DNA from: Gammaproteobacteria bacterium HGW-Gammaproteobacteria-3
Lineage (GTDB): Bacteria; Pseudomonadota; Gammaproteobacteria; Methylococcales; Methylomonadaceae
NCBI GenBank assembly: GCA_002843155.1
Contig: PGZD01000022.1
Location: forward strand, 1-39,307
DNA length: 39,307 nt
Direction of reading: 5' to 3'
Shown piece after piece: positions 1 to 8,807 of this stretch. Under the pieces are notes generated by a model. It did not search any database. It was not told where the DNA came from and worked only from the letters and a program-made list of their open reading frames with translations. The translations under genes and the position numbers were made by a program. Position 1 is the first letter of the stretch. Each line of letters begins with the position of its first letter.

Positions 1-99
1 ATCAACCATTTCGGCGAATCCGCCCCGGCCGGACAATTGTTCAAAGAGTTTGGCTTCACGGTTGAAAATGTCATTAAGCATGTAGAAGCTGTACTTTAA
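1..99 (+). CDS. tkt: Transketolase, C-terminal end (partial)
   Basis: The window opens inside a reading frame of 32 codons that ends in TAA at 97-99. The residues ([19 protein letters not shown], then [12 protein letters not shown]) match the C-terminal end of bacterial transketolases, which carry FGxSAPAxxLxxxFGFTxxNV. Transketolase is a cytosolic thiamine-diphosphate enzyme that moves two-carbon units between sugar phosphates in the pentose-phosphate and ribulose-monophosphate pathways. Transaldolase and fructose-bisphosphate aldolase follow on the same strand, which supports the call. Only the tail is visible, so catalytic residues cannot be checked. Confidence 0.9.
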
Positions 100-198: not shown

Positions 199-870
199 GT
201 GAAAAAAAATAATTTTTTAAGAAGTACATTAGCTATTTTTTTGTTATCCAGTCCATTAGCAGACGCGGAACCAAAATATCCGGCCGCTGACTTCAAGCCC
301 ACAGTGCAATATCAGGATTCTGAGTATATCGCCAAAAGCAAAAGCCCATCCGCAAGTAGCAAACAAAGCCAGCCAACCGCACCGGACTCGCAATATCCAG
401 CGGCGGCCTTCGAGCCTAAAGTGTTGTTTAGCGATAGTGATTATAAACATAGCACGCCCAAAGTCACTGCGCCCAAATCTTCCAGCACTTCTGTAGACCT
501 AAGTGCAAGTGCTGGGGAAGCAGCCGTTGCCACTACCGGAAAGAAACCGGAATCCAATTCCAGTCTTCTCATTGCTCTGGTTGTTTTGGCTTTGGTGGGA
601 TTTGCTTTTTTCAGGAAAAAAAGCGGCACAAAATCACCTGCGGCCAAACAGTATCCCGCTTTCACGCCGGATACCAGCGGATTAACCGGTGTCAGTAAAT
701 ATCTTCAAAACAAAGAAGGCCCCATTCCTACCGGCGTCGCAAAATATTTAGACAAACAGGTTGCTACAGTCAAGGAAAAAGCAGCGGCTACCGGTGTTGC
801 AAAATATCTGGAAAAGAAAGTCGTTGAATCTGAAACCGGCGTTTCCAAATATCTGCGCAGCAAAAGCTAA
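199..870 (+). CDS. Secreted or membrane-anchored protein with TGVxKYL repeats
   Basis: I do not recognise a named family. The GTG start at 199 is preceded by AGGGGA at 188-193; the ATG at 197 is in another frame and closes at once. The 223-residue product has a signal peptide (about residues 1-23, ending ADA-EP). Two related blocks begin YPAADFKP (27-43) and YPAAAFEP (66-82), each followed by an acidic DSxY, with a shorter echo QYPAFTPD at 151. A Ser/Thr/Ala-rich linker leads to one strong membrane helix (about 121-138) with a positive stop FRKK. The tail holds four copies of TGV(S/A)KYL at 163, 178, 198 and 213. The topology suggests an N-terminal part outside the membrane and a repeat tail in the cytoplasm. 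It lies between tkt and tal, so a link to those enzymes is possible but unproven. Confidence 0.75.
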   Translation: MKKNNFLRSTLAIFLLSSPLADAEPKYPAADFKPTVQYQDSEYIAKSKSPSASSKQSQPTAPDSQYPAAAFEPKVLFSDSDYKHSTPKVTAPKSSSTSVDLSASAGEAAVATTGKKPESNSSLLIALVVLALVGFAFFRKKSGTKSPAAKQYPAFTPDTSGLTGVSKYLQNKEGPIPTGVAKYLDKQVATVKEKAAATGVAKYLEKKVVESETGVSKYLRSKS

Positions 871-1296: not shown

Positions 1297-2283
1297 ATGG
1301 CTAAAAATTTACTGGAACAACTGCGCGCGATAACTGTTGTGGTGGCCGACACCGGCGACCTTCAGGCTATCGAAACTTTCAAACCGCGTGATGCAACAAC
1401 CAATCCTTCGTTGATTACCGCAGCGGCACAGATGCCCCAATATCAAGCAATCGTTGACGATACTCTCAAAGGAGCCAGAGCCACTTTAGGTAAAGATGCC
1501 GCTGCCGCTGATGTGGTTACTCTCGCATTCGACCGTTTGGCGGTATCTTTTGGCCTTAAAATTCTTCAGCTCATTGAAGGCCGGGTTTCAACCGAAGTTG
1601 ACGCACGCCTCTCTTACGACACCGAGGCAACCATCGCCAAAGGCCGTGAATTGATCGCCCAGTACGAAGCGGCAGGCGTTTCCAAAGAACGGGTATTGAT
1701 CAAGATAGCCTCAACCTGGGAAGGCATCAAAGCGGCTGAAGTTCTGGAAAAAGAAGGCATCCATTGCAATCTTACTTTATTGTTCGGCTTGCACCAGGCC
1801 ATTGCTTGTGCCGAAGCCGGAATTACTCTGATCTCGCCTTTTGTCGGACGTATCCTTGATTGGTATAAAAAAGATACCGGCCGCGATTCTTACGCACCGG
1901 CGGAAGACCCCGGCGTACTGTCGGTGACTGAAGTGTATAACTACTACAAAAAATTCGGCTATAAAACCGAAGTCATGGGCGCAAGCTTCCGTAACATTGG
2001 CGAGATCACCGAATTGGCGGGATGCGATCTGCTGACCATATCACCGGCGCTTTTGGGTGAACTGCAATCAACAGAAGCTGAATTGCCACGCAAATTGGAT
2101 CCAGCCAAAGCGGCTGCGGCAAGCATCGAAAAAATCAATATCGATAAAGCCACTTTTGATAAGTTACACGCCGAAAACCGCATGGCGACCGATAAACTGA
2201 AAGAAGGCATCGATGGTTTTGCCAAGGCGCTGGAAGCACTCGAAACCCTCCTGGCTGAACGCCTGTCCAGCCTGGAAGCATAA
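1297..2283 (+). CDS. tal: Transaldolase
   Basis: Transaldolase (328 residues; E. coli TalB has 317) transfers a dihydroxyacetone unit between sugar phosphates in the non-oxidative pentose-phosphate and ribulose-monophosphate regeneration routes. The sequence shows the TalA/TalB-type signature ATTNPSLI at 33-40 and the Schiff-base lysine in [11 protein letters not shown] (Lys136, equivalent to TalB Lys132). It also has the conserved [12 protein letters not shown] and GASFRN segments. The start is supported by AAAGG at 1283-1287. It stands between a transketolase end and a class II aldolase, which fits sugar-phosphate rearrangement in a C1-assimilating organism. The C-terminal tail after residue 317 is slightly longer than in E. 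coli. Confidence 0.97.
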
Positions 2284-2397: not shown

Positions 2398-3477
2398 ATG
2401 TCACAAAAAATTTTAGATGTGGTCAAACCCGGTGTCGTAACCGGAGAAGACGTTCAAAAAATCTTCGCCATTTGTAAAAAAAATAGATTTGCCTTGCCTG
2501 CGGTCAACGTCATCAGCACGGATGTCATCAATTCAGTTTTGGAAGCCGCAGCAAAAGTAAAATCACCTGTCGTTATCCAGATGTCAAACGGCGGTGCTGC
2601 CTTTTTTGCAGGCAAAGGACTGAAATTGGAAGGTCAGCAATGCTCTATTTTGGGAGCCATTTCAGGCGCTCTGCATGTTCATAATATTGCCGAACATTAT
2701 GGCGTTCCTGTCATCCTGCATACCGATCATGCGGCAAAAAAATTATTGCCCTGGATTGACGGCTTGCTTGATGCCGGTGAAAAACATTTCGCCGAAACCG
2801 GAAAACCCTTATTCAGTTCGCATATGCTTGACTTATCCGAAGAAAGTCTCGAAGAAAACATTGAAACCTGCGCCAAATATTTAACGCGCATGGCCAAAAT
2901 GGGTATGACGCTGGAAATTGAATTAGGCGTTACCGGGGGCGAAGAAGACGGCGTTGATAATAGCGATATGGATCATTCCTTGCTATACACACAACCGGAA
3001 GATGTGGCTTACGCTTATGAAAAGCTTAATCAGGTTAGCCCTAACTTTACTATCGCGGCCTCGTTCGGTAACGTCCACGGCGTCTATAAACCGGGCAACG
3101 TCAAATTGACGCCCAAAATATTGTACAACTCGCAAAAATTTGTTTCGGAAAAATACGGCTTGCCGGAAAATTCTTTAAACTTTGTTTTCCATGGCGGTTC
3201 AGGTTCAACGGCGGAAGAGATCAAAGAGTCGATCAGCTACGGCGTGGTAAAAATGAATATCGACACCGATACGCAATGGGCTACTTGGGCCGGTGTAATG
3301 AACTTCTACAAAGAAAACGAAGGTTATTTACAAGGCCAGATAGGCAATCCCGATGGCGACGACAAACCCAACAAAAAATACTATGACCCACGAGTTTGGC
3401 AACGTGCGGGTCAGGTCAGTATGGTGACCCGTTTAGAGCAAGCTTTTCAGGAATTAAACGCAGTCAATACACTGTAG
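2398..3477 (+). CDS. fba: Fructose-bisphosphate aldolase, class II
   Basis: Zinc-dependent aldolase of 359 residues, the same length as E. coli FbaA. It reversibly splits fructose-1,6-bisphosphate into dihydroxyacetone phosphate and glyceraldehyde-3-phosphate. The catalytic and zinc-binding HTDH is at 108-111. Further metal or phosphate-binding segments are NVHGVYKPG and FVFHGGSGS, followed by NIDTDTQWA. The protein begins SQKILDVVKPGVVTG, typical of the FbaA-type subgroup, so the start is sound. With tkt and tal upstream it completes a sugar-phosphate set used by methanotrophs that fix formaldehyde through the ribulose-monophosphate cycle with glycolytic cleavage. A strong terminator follows at 3495. 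Confidence 0.97.
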   Translation: MSQKILDVVKPGVVTGEDVQKIFAICKKNRFALPAVNVISTDVINSVLEAAAKVKSPVVIQMSNGGAAFFAGKGLKLEGQQCSILGAISGALHVHNIAEHYGVPVILHTDHAAKKLLPWIDGLLDAGEKHFAETGKPLFSSHMLDLSEESLEENIETCAKYLTRMAKMGMTLEIELGVTGGEEDGVDNSDMDHSLLYTQPEDVAYAYEKLNQVSPNFTIAASFGNVHGVYKPGNVKLTPKILYNSQKFVSEKYGLPENSLNFVFHGGSGSTAEEIKESISYGVVKMNIDTDTQWATWAGVMNFYKENEGYLQGQIGNPDGDDKPNKKYYDPRVWQRAGQVSMVTRLEQAFQELNAVNTL

Positions 3478-6086: not shown

Positions 6087-8807
6087 TCAATGCGCTTCAT
6101 CCCAATTGTCGCCGACGCCGATATCGACGATCAGCGGCACATCGAGACGGGCCGCCGAGCACATCAGGGTTCTTATTTTTTCTATACTGGCGGGAATGGC
6201 CGCTTGCGTGATTTCGAATACCAGTTCGTCATGTACCTGCATGATCATTTTGGCGCCGGGCTGCTCGCTTTGCAGCCAGTCATCGCAGGCAATCATGGCG
6301 CGTTTGATGATGTCCGCCGCCGTACCTTGCATGGGCGCGTTTATCGCCGTGCGCTCGGCATATTGCCTGCGGGCGGCGTTGCGGGCGGTAATTTCGGGTA
6401 AATACAGTCGGCGACCAAACAAGGTTTCGACATAACCTTGCTGTTTGGCCTTTTTCCTGATGCTGTCCATGTATTGCTTGACGCCGGGATAGCGGGCAAA
6501 ATACAAATCGATGTAAGCTTGCGCCTGATTGCGCGCCAGACCGAGCTGCTGCGCCAGACCAAAAGCCGACATGCCGTAAATCAGGCCGAAATTGATGGCC
6601 TTGGCCGAACGCCTTAACTCTGTGGTAACCTGTTCCGGCGCGACGCCGAAAACTTCCGAAGCAGTCGCGCTGTGAATATCGCGGCCTTCCGAAAAAGCCG
6701 CTTTAAGGCCTTCATCACCCGATAAATGCGCCATGATGCGCAATTCGATCTGAGAATAATCGGCGGCAACCAGTTGACAGCCTTCGGGTGCGATAAAGGC
6801 CTGCCTTATTTTACGGCCTTCGGCGCTGCGGATGGGGATGTTCTGCAAATTGGGGTCGGATGAAGACAGCCTGCCGGTGGCGGCGACGGCCTGATGATAG
6901 GACGTATGCACCCGCCCGCTTGTCGCATTGACTTGCTGAGGCAGCTTGTCGGTATAAGTCGATTTCAGTTTGCTCATACCCCGGTAATCGAGAATGAGCT
7001 TGGGCAACGGATAATCCAGCGCCAGTTCCGCCAGCACCGATTCGGCCGTCGAAGGTTGGCCGGTAGGCGTAAGTTTCAGTACCGGCAAATGCAGTTGATC
7101 GTAAATAATCGTTTGTATCTGCTTAGGGGAACCCAGGTTGAAAGTTTGCCCGGCCAGATCGTTTGCCTGTTGTTCGATGGCGCATATGTGACTGGCCAGC
7201 TCCATGCTTTGCAGGGACAACATGGCGGTATCGATCAGCACGCCGTTCCTTTCAATTCTCGACAGCACGCTGATCAGAGGCACTTCGATCTCGCGGTACA
7301 AGGTTTCCAGTGCCGGTTGACGGTGCAACCGGTCGAACAGGACCTGATGCAATTTCAGGGTTATATCGGCGTCTTCGGCGGCATAAGGTGCGGCTTGTTC
7401 CAGCGCGACTTCCTGAAACGGAATTTGCTTGGCGCCTTTACCTGCGACATCTTCATAGTGGATGGTCTCGACGCCGAGGTATTCTTTGGCCATATCGTCC
7501 ATATTATGCCGGGTCGCGGTGCTGTTCAGGACATAGGATTCGAGCATGGTGTCGTGGGCGATGCCGCGCAGTTCGATGCCGTGGTTGGCCAGGACGTTGG
7601 CGTCGTATTTAAGGTTTTGGCCGAGCTTGGCAGGCGCCGGATTTTCCAGCAATGGCCGCATTTTTTCAAGCACTGTGGTTCTATCGAGCTGTTTGGGCGC
7701 ATCGGGATAATCATGCGCCAGCGGCACATAAGCGGCATGACCCGCTTCCACGGCAAAGGAAATGCCGACGATTTGCGCCTGTGTGTAGTCCAGCGCACTG
7801 GTTTCGGTGTCGAATGCAAACAATTCGGCCTGGTTCAGTTTGGCAAACCAACGCTCGAAATCTACCTCGGTCAATAGGGTTTCATATTGGGGCGCGGCAG
7901 TGTTATTTTTAACCGGCGGCGGTTTTTGTGCGGAGGATGATTCCTGTGTATTTTCCAGCATTTTGAGCCAGGAAGAAAAGCCCAGGTCGGCTAGTAATGT
8001 TTTCAATTCAGCCAAGGCAATCGGCTGACGCTTCAAATCTTCAATGGTATAAGGCAGGATAAGATCGCATTTTATTGTTGTGAGTTGTTTTGATAACGGC
8101 AACTGATCCAGACTGTCTCTGAGATAATCGCCAACTTTGCCTTTGATCTGATCGGCCGAGGCGATCAGATTTTCCAAAGTTTGATAATCCATCAGCCATT
8201 TCGCTGCGGTTTTAGGCCCAACTTTGGGGACGCCGGGGATATTATCGACTCTGTCGCCCATCAACGCCAGGTAGTCGATGATTTGTTCGGGTTTGACGCC
8301 GAATTTGTCGATCACGCCTTGAATATCGGTGCAGGTGTTAGACATTGTGTTTTCCAGGGTAATGCGCTCGGTGACCAGTTGCGCCATGTCTTTGTCGCCG
8401 GTGGATATGATTACGTCAAAACCTTGCTGTTCCGCTTGTTTGGCCAAAGCCCCGATGACATCGTCGGCTTCGACATCGGCTTGCATGAGTAGGGGCAAGC
8501 CCATGACTTTGATGAGCTGATGCAAAGGCTCGATCTGTACGCGCAAGTCGTCCGGCATCGGCGGACGATGGGCTTTGTATTGATCGTACAAAGTATGGCG
8601 AAAGTTTTTGCCCGGCGCATCGAAAATCACGCTGATGTAATCGGTCGGATGATCGGCGATGAGTTTACGCAGCATGTTGGCCACGCCGTAAATGGCATTG
8701 GTCGGCATACCGGAAGGGCTGGTCAGCGGCGGTACGGCATGATAGGCGCGAAATAAAAAAGACGAGCCGTCAATCAGCACCAGATATTTTTGTTTGTTTT
8801 CAGACAT
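6087..8807 (-). CDS. polA: DNA polymerase I
   Basis: A full-length 906-residue DNA polymerase I for Okazaki-fragment maturation and excision repair. The 5'-3' exonuclease domain runs from about residue 6 (LVLIDGSSFLFRAYHA) to about 290. The 3'-5' proofreading domain appears intact: FDTET (Asp333, Glu335), NLKYD (Asp402) and YAAED (Tyr475, Asp479). The polymerase motifs are A (ADYSQIELR, Asp683), B (RRSAKAINFGLIYG, about 732-745) and C (VHDE, Asp860 and Glu861). The gene stands alone, with 104 bases to the next gene downstream of its start. It is an ordinary housekeeping gene with no sign of transfer. Confidence 0.98.
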   Translation of the reverse strand: MSENKQKYLVLIDGSSFLFRAYHAVPPLTSPSGMPTNAIYGVANMLRKLIADHPTDYISVIFDAPGKNFRHTLYDQYKAHRPPMPDDLRVQIEPLHQLIKVMGLPLLMQADVEADDVIGALAKQAEQQGFDVIISTGDKDMAQLVTERITLENTMSNTCTDIQGVIDKFGVKPEQIIDYLALMGDRVDNIPGVPKVGPKTAAKWLMDYQTLENLIASADQIKGKVGDYLRDSLDQLPLSKQLTTIKCDLILPYTIEDLKRQPIALAELKTLLADLGFSSWLKMLENTQESSSAQKPPPVKNNTAAPQYETLLTEVDFERWFAKLNQAELFAFDTETSALDYTQAQIVGISFAVEAGHAAYVPLAHDYPDAPKQLDRTTVLEKMRPLLENPAPAKLGQNLKYDANVLANHGIELRGIAHDTMLESYVLNSTATRHNMDDMAKEYLGVETIHYEDVAGKGAKQIPFQEVALEQAAPYAAEDADITLKLHQVLFDRLHRQPALETLYREIEVPLISVLSRIERNGVLIDTAMLSLQSMELASHICAIEQQANDLAGQTFNLGSPKQIQTIIYDQLHLPVLKLTPTGQPSTAESVLAELALDYPLPKLILDYRGMSKLKSTYTDKLPQQVNATSGRVHTSYHQAVAATGRLSSSDPNLQNIPIRSAEGRKIRQAFIAPEGCQLVAADYSQIELRIMAHLSGDEGLKAAFSEGRDIHSATASEVFGVAPEQVTTELRRSAKAINFGLIYGMSAFGLAQQLGLARNQAQAYIDLYFARYPGVKQYMDSIRKKAKQQGYVETLFGRRLYLPEITARNAARRQYAERTAINAPMQGTAADIIKRAMIACDDWLQSEQPGAKMIMQVHDELVFEITQAAIPASIEKIRTLMCSAARLDVPLIVDIGVGDNWDEAH

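Follow-up and report, generated by a model that had tools for sequence, protein, structure and literature searches.

The window analysed here, a stretch of 39,307 nucleotides, opens with the end of a transketolase gene (tkt) and also carries a transaldolase gene (tal). Between the two lies an open reading frame for a protein of 223 amino acids, here called protein A, in which the motif TGVxKYL occurs four times. What is the role of a repeat-bearing membrane protein within a sugar-phosphate gene cluster? A first-pass annotation had viewed the repeats as docking sites for a partner protein, for instance an enzyme of the cluster or a cytoskeletal or envelope protein. The following features were read in the window:

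1-99, forward strand: 3' end of tkt (transketolase), read from the sequence; transketolase is the 5' neighbour in relatives
199-870, forward strand: open reading frame of protein A, GTG start, 223 aa
199-270, forward strand: signal-peptide-like N-terminus, aa 1-24, by sequence reading; helix 3-16 in a low-confidence model
277-327, forward strand: YPA block 1, aa 27-43, conserved by column identity
394-444, forward strand: YPA block 2, aa 66-82, by sequence reading and alignment
556-621, forward strand: predicted membrane helix, aa 120-141, with basic residues at its end, by hydrophobicity; helix 121-141 in the model
652-669, forward strand: third YPAFTP, aa 152, non-conserved, behind the membrane helix on the predicted cytoplasmic side
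685-705, forward strand: motif 1, TGVSKYL, aa 163, by motif search
730-750, forward strand: motif 2, TGVAKYL, aa 178, by motif search
790-810, forward strand: motif 3, TGVAKYL, aa 198, by motif search
835-855, forward strand: motif 4, TGVSKYL, aa 213, by motif search
1297-2283, forward strand: tal, transaldolase, 328 aa (PF00923, E 2.5e-91)
2398-3477, forward strand: fba, class II fructose-bisphosphate aldolase, 359 aa (PF01116, E 6.4e-80)

Protein A is built, in this order, from a signal-peptide-like start, two YPA blocks, a Ser/Ala-rich linker, a membrane helix and the TGVxKYL tail. RKK comes directly after the best hydrophobic 19-mer, which begins at aa 120, so that the tail fits the cytoplasmic side according to the positive-inside rule; the membrane-anchored protein with a cytoplasmic tail that had been proposed at first pass is confirmed at the level of prediction. 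Its three YPA blocks outside the membrane have to be corrected to two, both reading YPAxxFxPxVxYxD (aa 27 and aa 66), as the third is located behind the helix and is not conserved. In 28 aligned sequences block 1 had a mean column identity of 0.72 versus 0.37 in the linker after it, and block 2 was absent or degenerate in several of them. Four motifs are indeed present in the tail, at distances of 15, 20 and 15 aa and thus not quite as evenly spaced as had been described. Among 100,000 shuffles of protein A, 99,995 contained no motif, five contained one and none contained two; four motifs are far beyond chance.

To judge from the sequences, the YPA block constitutes a separate module. Two small secreted-looking proteins carry three YPA blocks and lack the TGV motif, one encoded on contig C43 of the window's own genome (L057:11901-12218, reverse strand) and one at L065:3050-3466 (reverse strand). 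In two further proteins a pair of YPA blocks is accompanied by a hydrophobic stretch and by an acidic tail devoid of TGV motifs (L062:9531-10154 and L063:1004-1648, both on the reverse strand); these acidic-tail proteins derive from G029, a genome of family f6 that keeps hps-phi, and from G032 of family f2, which has no hxlB over cut-off.

The surroundings of A were compared among its relatives. A total of 256 relatives were found, and the best 80 were analysed, a set in which distant members are under-represented and in which all loci belong to Methylococcales by title (Methylovulum, Methylobacter, Crenothrix, Methyloglobulus and others). The gene order is hps-phi-tkt-A-(B)-tal, that is, a ribulose monophosphate (RuMP) operon, in which B stands for a second repeat protein. 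Within these best 80 of 256, tkt was the nearest RuMP gene 5' of A at 76 of 76 loci with an upstream RuMP gene, and tal the nearest one 3' of A at 77 of 77 loci with a downstream RuMP gene; the available sequence held no RuMP gene on the 5' side at four loci and none on the 3' side at three. Gene B was situated between A and tal at 77 of the 80 loci and was not seen in L123, which ends with the contig, L165 and L166. The other RuMP genes recognised at the best 80 of 256 loci were hps (69), phi (70) and fba (57). In a further 40 mapped stretches A had tal as the next gene 3', with B allowed in between, in 26 cases; several of the other 14 had been picked for weak matches. Two of the 26 stretches (L050 and L051) carry the same proteins even though their genomes, G040 and G026, belong to different families, which probably reflects one contaminating contig in one of the assemblies. 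The A-like genes of G034 (L054) and of G007 (L053, where the contig ends) were located in stretches that contained no RuMP gene.

Protein B of the window's own genome (G000) is encoded on another contig:

Contig C76, 242-1516 (G000:C76:242-1516): protein B, 424 aa, 15 motifs by the wider expression

This contig and the contig of the window (C81) start with an identical 99 bases of tkt, which makes it probable that the front of the operon is duplicated and that the assembly was interrupted at this point, with A behind one copy of tkt and B behind the other. The motif pattern has 15 places in this genome, four in A, ten in B and one elsewhere, and its reversed form, used as control, has three; with 14 of 15 places the TGV motif is nearly private to the two proteins. 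B proteins carry between 7 and 17 motifs. In L028, B-hps-phi-tkt occurs in tandem repeats ahead of A, and in L044 hps-phi-tkt-B precedes hps-phi-tkt-A; in both loci B was amplified together with hps-phi-tkt. The N-terminus of several B proteins is hydrophobic, and one of these proteins exceeds the threshold of 1.6 at its start (L044 10348-10752). In the window, the gap that gene B occupies in relatives holds a strong predicted RNA hairpin just 3' of A (874-940; -28.4 kcal/mol for 871-960; z -5.9 against shuffles). The hairpin is absent from the list of terminators and could be a processing or repeat element.

Conservation of the motif was assessed in 329 non-independent pairs of A proteins with 65-95% identity, the motifs being located in one member of each pair. 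Motif residues were identical at 8796 of 9212 positions (95.5%), and 88% of the differing codons were synonymous. The rest of the tail was 68% identical, with 42% of the differing codons synonymous. The motif residues V and Y were identical in 2632 of 2632 comparisons, and in an alignment of 12 B proteins a motif V or Y accounts for 23 of the 27 invariant columns. These patterns point to strong purifying selection on the motif residues and far less on the linkers. The repeats are kept among relatives while the linkers drift. Structure models were of low confidence (B: pLDDT 58.5, pTM 0.21; A: pLDDT 63.2, pTM 0.20) and place the motif 1-3 residues ahead of a helix start in 15 of 15 cases in B and four of four in A; in the A tail, helix 2 of the model runs almost without a break into helix 3. 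This would fit mostly disordered chains resembling beads on a string, with no single folded domain.

The distribution of the motif was compared with that of hxlB (TIGR03127), which is present over cut-off in 33 of 41 genomes of the order. In a tally that combined motif pattern, gene maps and the hxlB search, 30 of these 41 genomes possessed both hxlB and motif genes; in one of the 30 (G004) a protein of the class C described below was the sole motif carrier. Three genomes had hxlB without motif genes of their own (G029, G035 and G040, the recognised motif genes of the last being on the contig shared with G026), one had the motif without hxlB (G007, where the contig breaks off immediately upstream of A) and seven had neither, three of them with one isolated pattern match each. 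Motif proteins are present in 31 or 32 of the 41 genomes by this kind of tally. The DNA pattern counts rest on the matches listed and are to be read against a reversed control that gave 0-3 matches per strand in most genomes, with higher values in G005 (7 and 10) and G010 (14 and 13).

In a sample of 369 genomes of the class, the profile A1 matched six genomes (E <= 1e-5), and hxlB was over cut-off in the same six (Fisher p 3e-13, with related genomes treated as independent). G391, which is free of the motif, came close with an hxlB-like match of 148 bits against a cut-off of 160. In the phylum sample of 398 genomes, hxlB was over cut-off in seven, of which only the window's genome was matched by the profile. 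Four of the other six hxlB loci were examined, G608 and G810 being left out: G800 has tal-hps-phi and no motif, the locus in G720 holds PHI-like genes and no HPS by BLAST, and no RuMP gene was recognised by BLAST at the loci of G503 and G613. In the class and phylum samples the profile matches only genomes with hxlB over cut-off, and many hxlB genomes are free of the motif. A requirement of the motif for any RuMP pathway is ruled out by family f6 (G029, G035) and by G800; since some RuMP bacteria manage without it, the motif is an add-on.

Three of the six profile matches in the class came from a second lineage, family f10, which is probably Methylophagaceae, as its order has only one other family in the collection and NCBI places Methylophagaceae in Nitrosococcales. 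The repeat protein of f10 measures 97-204 aa in the loci read and has a hydrophobic N-terminus, no YPA blocks and 3-7 TGVERYI- or TSVERYI-like motifs. Among 57 genomes of the family, a small TGV gene was present in 45 of the 48 with hxlB (in G459 as a 60-aa frame only) and in none of the nine without hxlB. It is located 272-2506 bases from hxlB in 44 of the 45 genomes and on a separate contig in one. In 22 of 25 drawn loci the repeat ORF was labelled by the expression (L200, L205 and L210 remained unlabelled), and these 22 all had tal as the next gene 3' and, with the exception of L194, hps on the 5' side. The neighbours common to both lineages are hps, phi and tal. A paper on Methylophaga names the RuMP enzymes, and the part of its text available makes no mention of a repeat protein (PMC6548844).

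TGV-like motifs were also seen in a 2035-aa CheA-like hybrid kinase of G199, a genome of f10 (L186:4745-10852, reverse strand), where they lie in a linker at about aa 890-990. Pfam recognises Hpt, HATPase_c, CheW and response regulator domains in this kinase. Profile matches within open frames of 700-2065 aa occurred in 28 of the 57 f10 genomes, only the one in G199 being annotated. A further group of motif carriers, class C, was recognised by motif reading:

L085 6300-7049 and L086 6755-7528, forward strand: class C proteins
L088 5658-6353 and L059 2734-3519, reverse strand: class C proteins

These proteins have 4-5 TGV-like motifs and, at the C-terminus, a Cys/His segment that is conserved (TQCQAxTxxGxQCxxT...CxQHxNDxFKP). 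The stretches examined contained no RuMP operon, and two class C proteins tested had no Pfam match.

Protein A, protein B and their relatives may form a multivalent scaffold that clusters at least one RuMP enzyme and is tethered to the membrane in the case of A, a proposal to which we give roughly even chances. It draws on the operon linkage, the co-occurrence with hxlB, the nearly private motif, the selection on it, its position at helix starts and the amplification of B with hps-phi-tkt. Two hallmarks of scaffold proteins are found here in the form of a repeated short motif under selection within a chain that is disordered according to low-confidence models, together with genetic linkage to the supposed client enzymes. 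A synthetic counterpart lends support, as scaffolding of Mdh, Hps and Phi is reported to raise methanol conversion in the excerpted text of PMC10771841. The motif-free RuMP genomes argue against it, namely f6, G800 and the phylum sample with its single profile match among seven hxlB genomes, and so do the low confidence of the models and the motif carriers outside the operon.

In the proposed mechanism, TGVx(K/R)Y(L/I) would form a short helix with T or S as N-cap and with V, Y and L on one face, and each motif would dock into a pocket of at least one RuMP enzyme. HPS, PHI or TAL are the candidate partners, as their genes are common to both lineages. Conserved columns that differed in all motif-free sequences numbered 5 of 132 in HPS, 3 of 93 in PHI and 50 of 195 in TAL, a comparison that rests on just four motif-free sequences (one for TAL), is without a null model and was given no weight in naming the candidates. 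Through its flexible chain, one B with 7-17 motifs, or several A tails, could cross-link many enzyme oligomers. Located in the inner or an intracytoplasmic membrane, A would fix the enzyme cluster there, and its periplasmic YPA blocks may bind a periplasmic partner. Formaldehyde is a toxic compound, which these bacteria generate on the outer side of the cytoplasmic membrane and fix on its inner side. Methanol dehydrogenase of methanotrophs, which produces it, is a periplasmic enzyme, so that a cluster held at the membrane would catch formaldehyde on entry. The hexulose phosphate synthase of methane oxidisers was reportedly found to be particulate by Quayle's group in the 1960s-70s; if this is right, A would be the obvious candidate for its anchor. 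Reports on a particulate synthase were not found among the open-licence PMC papers listed, nor in the portion of PMC8879981 available.

As far as the available stretches show, the motif occurs outside the operon in class C, in G034 (L054) and in the CheA-like kinase of f10, which suggests either a portable tag or another partner. A more far-reaching version of the scaffold proposal adopts the former: TGVx(K/R)Y(L/I) would serve as a portable code for docking, by which type I methanotrophs assemble a natural RuMP metabolon anchored in the membrane. The membrane-spanning protein A would link the production of formaldehyde in the periplasm to its fixation in the cytoplasm, B would cross-link the enzymes, and the tag would let class C proteins and the f10 kinase dock. 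Taken as a whole, this version is tentative and rather doubtful. The latter option, in which the motifs bind a membrane, envelope or chemosensory partner outside the RuMP pathway and the genes reside in the operon for co-expression only, would account for the kinase and for class C, whose stretches as examined showed no RuMP gene. We regard it as unlikely in view of the tight RuMP linkage in two lineages with different operon layouts and of the seven genomes of the order without A and hxlB, which show at most one isolated pattern match each.

Methylococcales are known for intracytoplasmic membranes, and the helices might instead bind each other or lipid, so that A and B would form a polymer or coat that shapes these membranes, with the RuMP enzymes not being clients. 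The membrane helix of A and the hydrophobic N-terminus of several B proteins are in line with such a coat. It is nevertheless improbable: in the low-confidence models the helices are separate and do not pack, and the repeats are found beside hps and tal in f10, a family of inferred taxonomy which probably does not comprise methane oxidisers with intracytoplasmic membranes. That A and B assist the assembly of a single operon enzyme or regulate it, affecting for instance its oligomerisation or activity, would agree with the same linkage data and is quite improbable, as a stoichiometric regulator needs neither a variable motif number (7-17 in B) nor a membrane anchor.

The docking interpretation of the first-pass annotation, as far as it concerned enzymes of the cluster, is in part supported by these sequence comparisons: the homologues keep their place beside tkt and tal, the repeats are conserved, and both of the outcomes named beforehand as speaking against it, scattered homologues and repeats not conserved among close relatives, failed to appear. 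The alternative cytoskeletal or envelope partner found no support, with nothing seen either way. What the present analysis adds is the identity of the cluster, the RuMP operon, together with a larger repeat protein (B) and the recurrence of the motif in a second lineage.

No known family was matched over cut-off by A and B, though they occur in most sampled genomes of the order. In Pfam, A reached 14.3 bits with DUF1180 (PF06679; cut-off 27.7, E 0.056), B and the f10 protein reached 18.8 and 20.6 bits with ATP_synth_reg (PF14960; curated cut-off 25), and B reached 22.1 bits with U1snRNP70_N (PF12220; cut-off 23, E 2.2e-4). The last near-match is a charged low-complexity stretch, no part of which passes alone. 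PF14960 (DAPIT) is a mitochondrial ATP synthase subunit with a TG-hydrophobic-x-K-Y-like stretch, a helix-cap resemblance at most. The best NCBIfam scores of seven proteins (15.5 of 700, 19.6 of 50 and 19.5 of 141 bits) were all under cut-off, PHROGs gave no match to A and B at E <= 0.001, and no PDB chain matched the A and B profiles over cut-off. Viral relatives of A were not found: none of eight stretches that matched a pattern was confirmed, and PHROGs gave none.

We know of no natural scaffold for the RuMP pathway, and none was indicated by the titles and abstract beginnings of the open-licence PMC papers listed; 'Metabolon' in the accessible part of PMC5802761 is a company name. Of four literal motif strings, only GVAKYL occurs in open-licence PMC papers, in a single unrelated one. 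For Methylococcus capsulatus, a 5,267-bp identical repeat with RuMP genes has been described in a text that, in the part available, leaves A unmentioned (PMC517821), and a CRISPRi study reports, in its accessible portion, that guides targeting the RuMP operons have negative fitness (PMC13108547), which says nothing about A itself.

The proposed scaffold has counterparts in carbon fixation. EPYC1 of algal pyrenoids and CsoS2 of alpha-carboxysomes are multivalent Rubisco linkers, and CsoS2 is encoded beside its enzyme. Like A and B as predicted here, they are disordered chains with repeated short motifs, which serve to gather an enzyme; the likeness is one in the way of working only. A and B differ from them in their motif, in profiles that match no solved chain and in the pathway, RuMP instead of Calvin-Benson; A in addition possesses a membrane helix and a periplasmic portion. 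The synthetic assembly of Mdh, Hps and Phi by SH3-ligand interaction, engineered in E. coli, likewise gathers formaldehyde-producing and formaldehyde-fixing enzymes through short-peptide docking (Price et al. 2016, as excerpted in PMC10771841); a scaffold of A and B would be natural and partly membrane-tethered. If true, a natural scaffold for formaldehyde fixation would explain how the flux stays safe, and it would offer a ready modular docking tag to engineers of methane- or methanol-based production. The metabolon version, if true, would provide a molecular basis for the reportedly particulate hexulose phosphate synthase of methane oxidisers.
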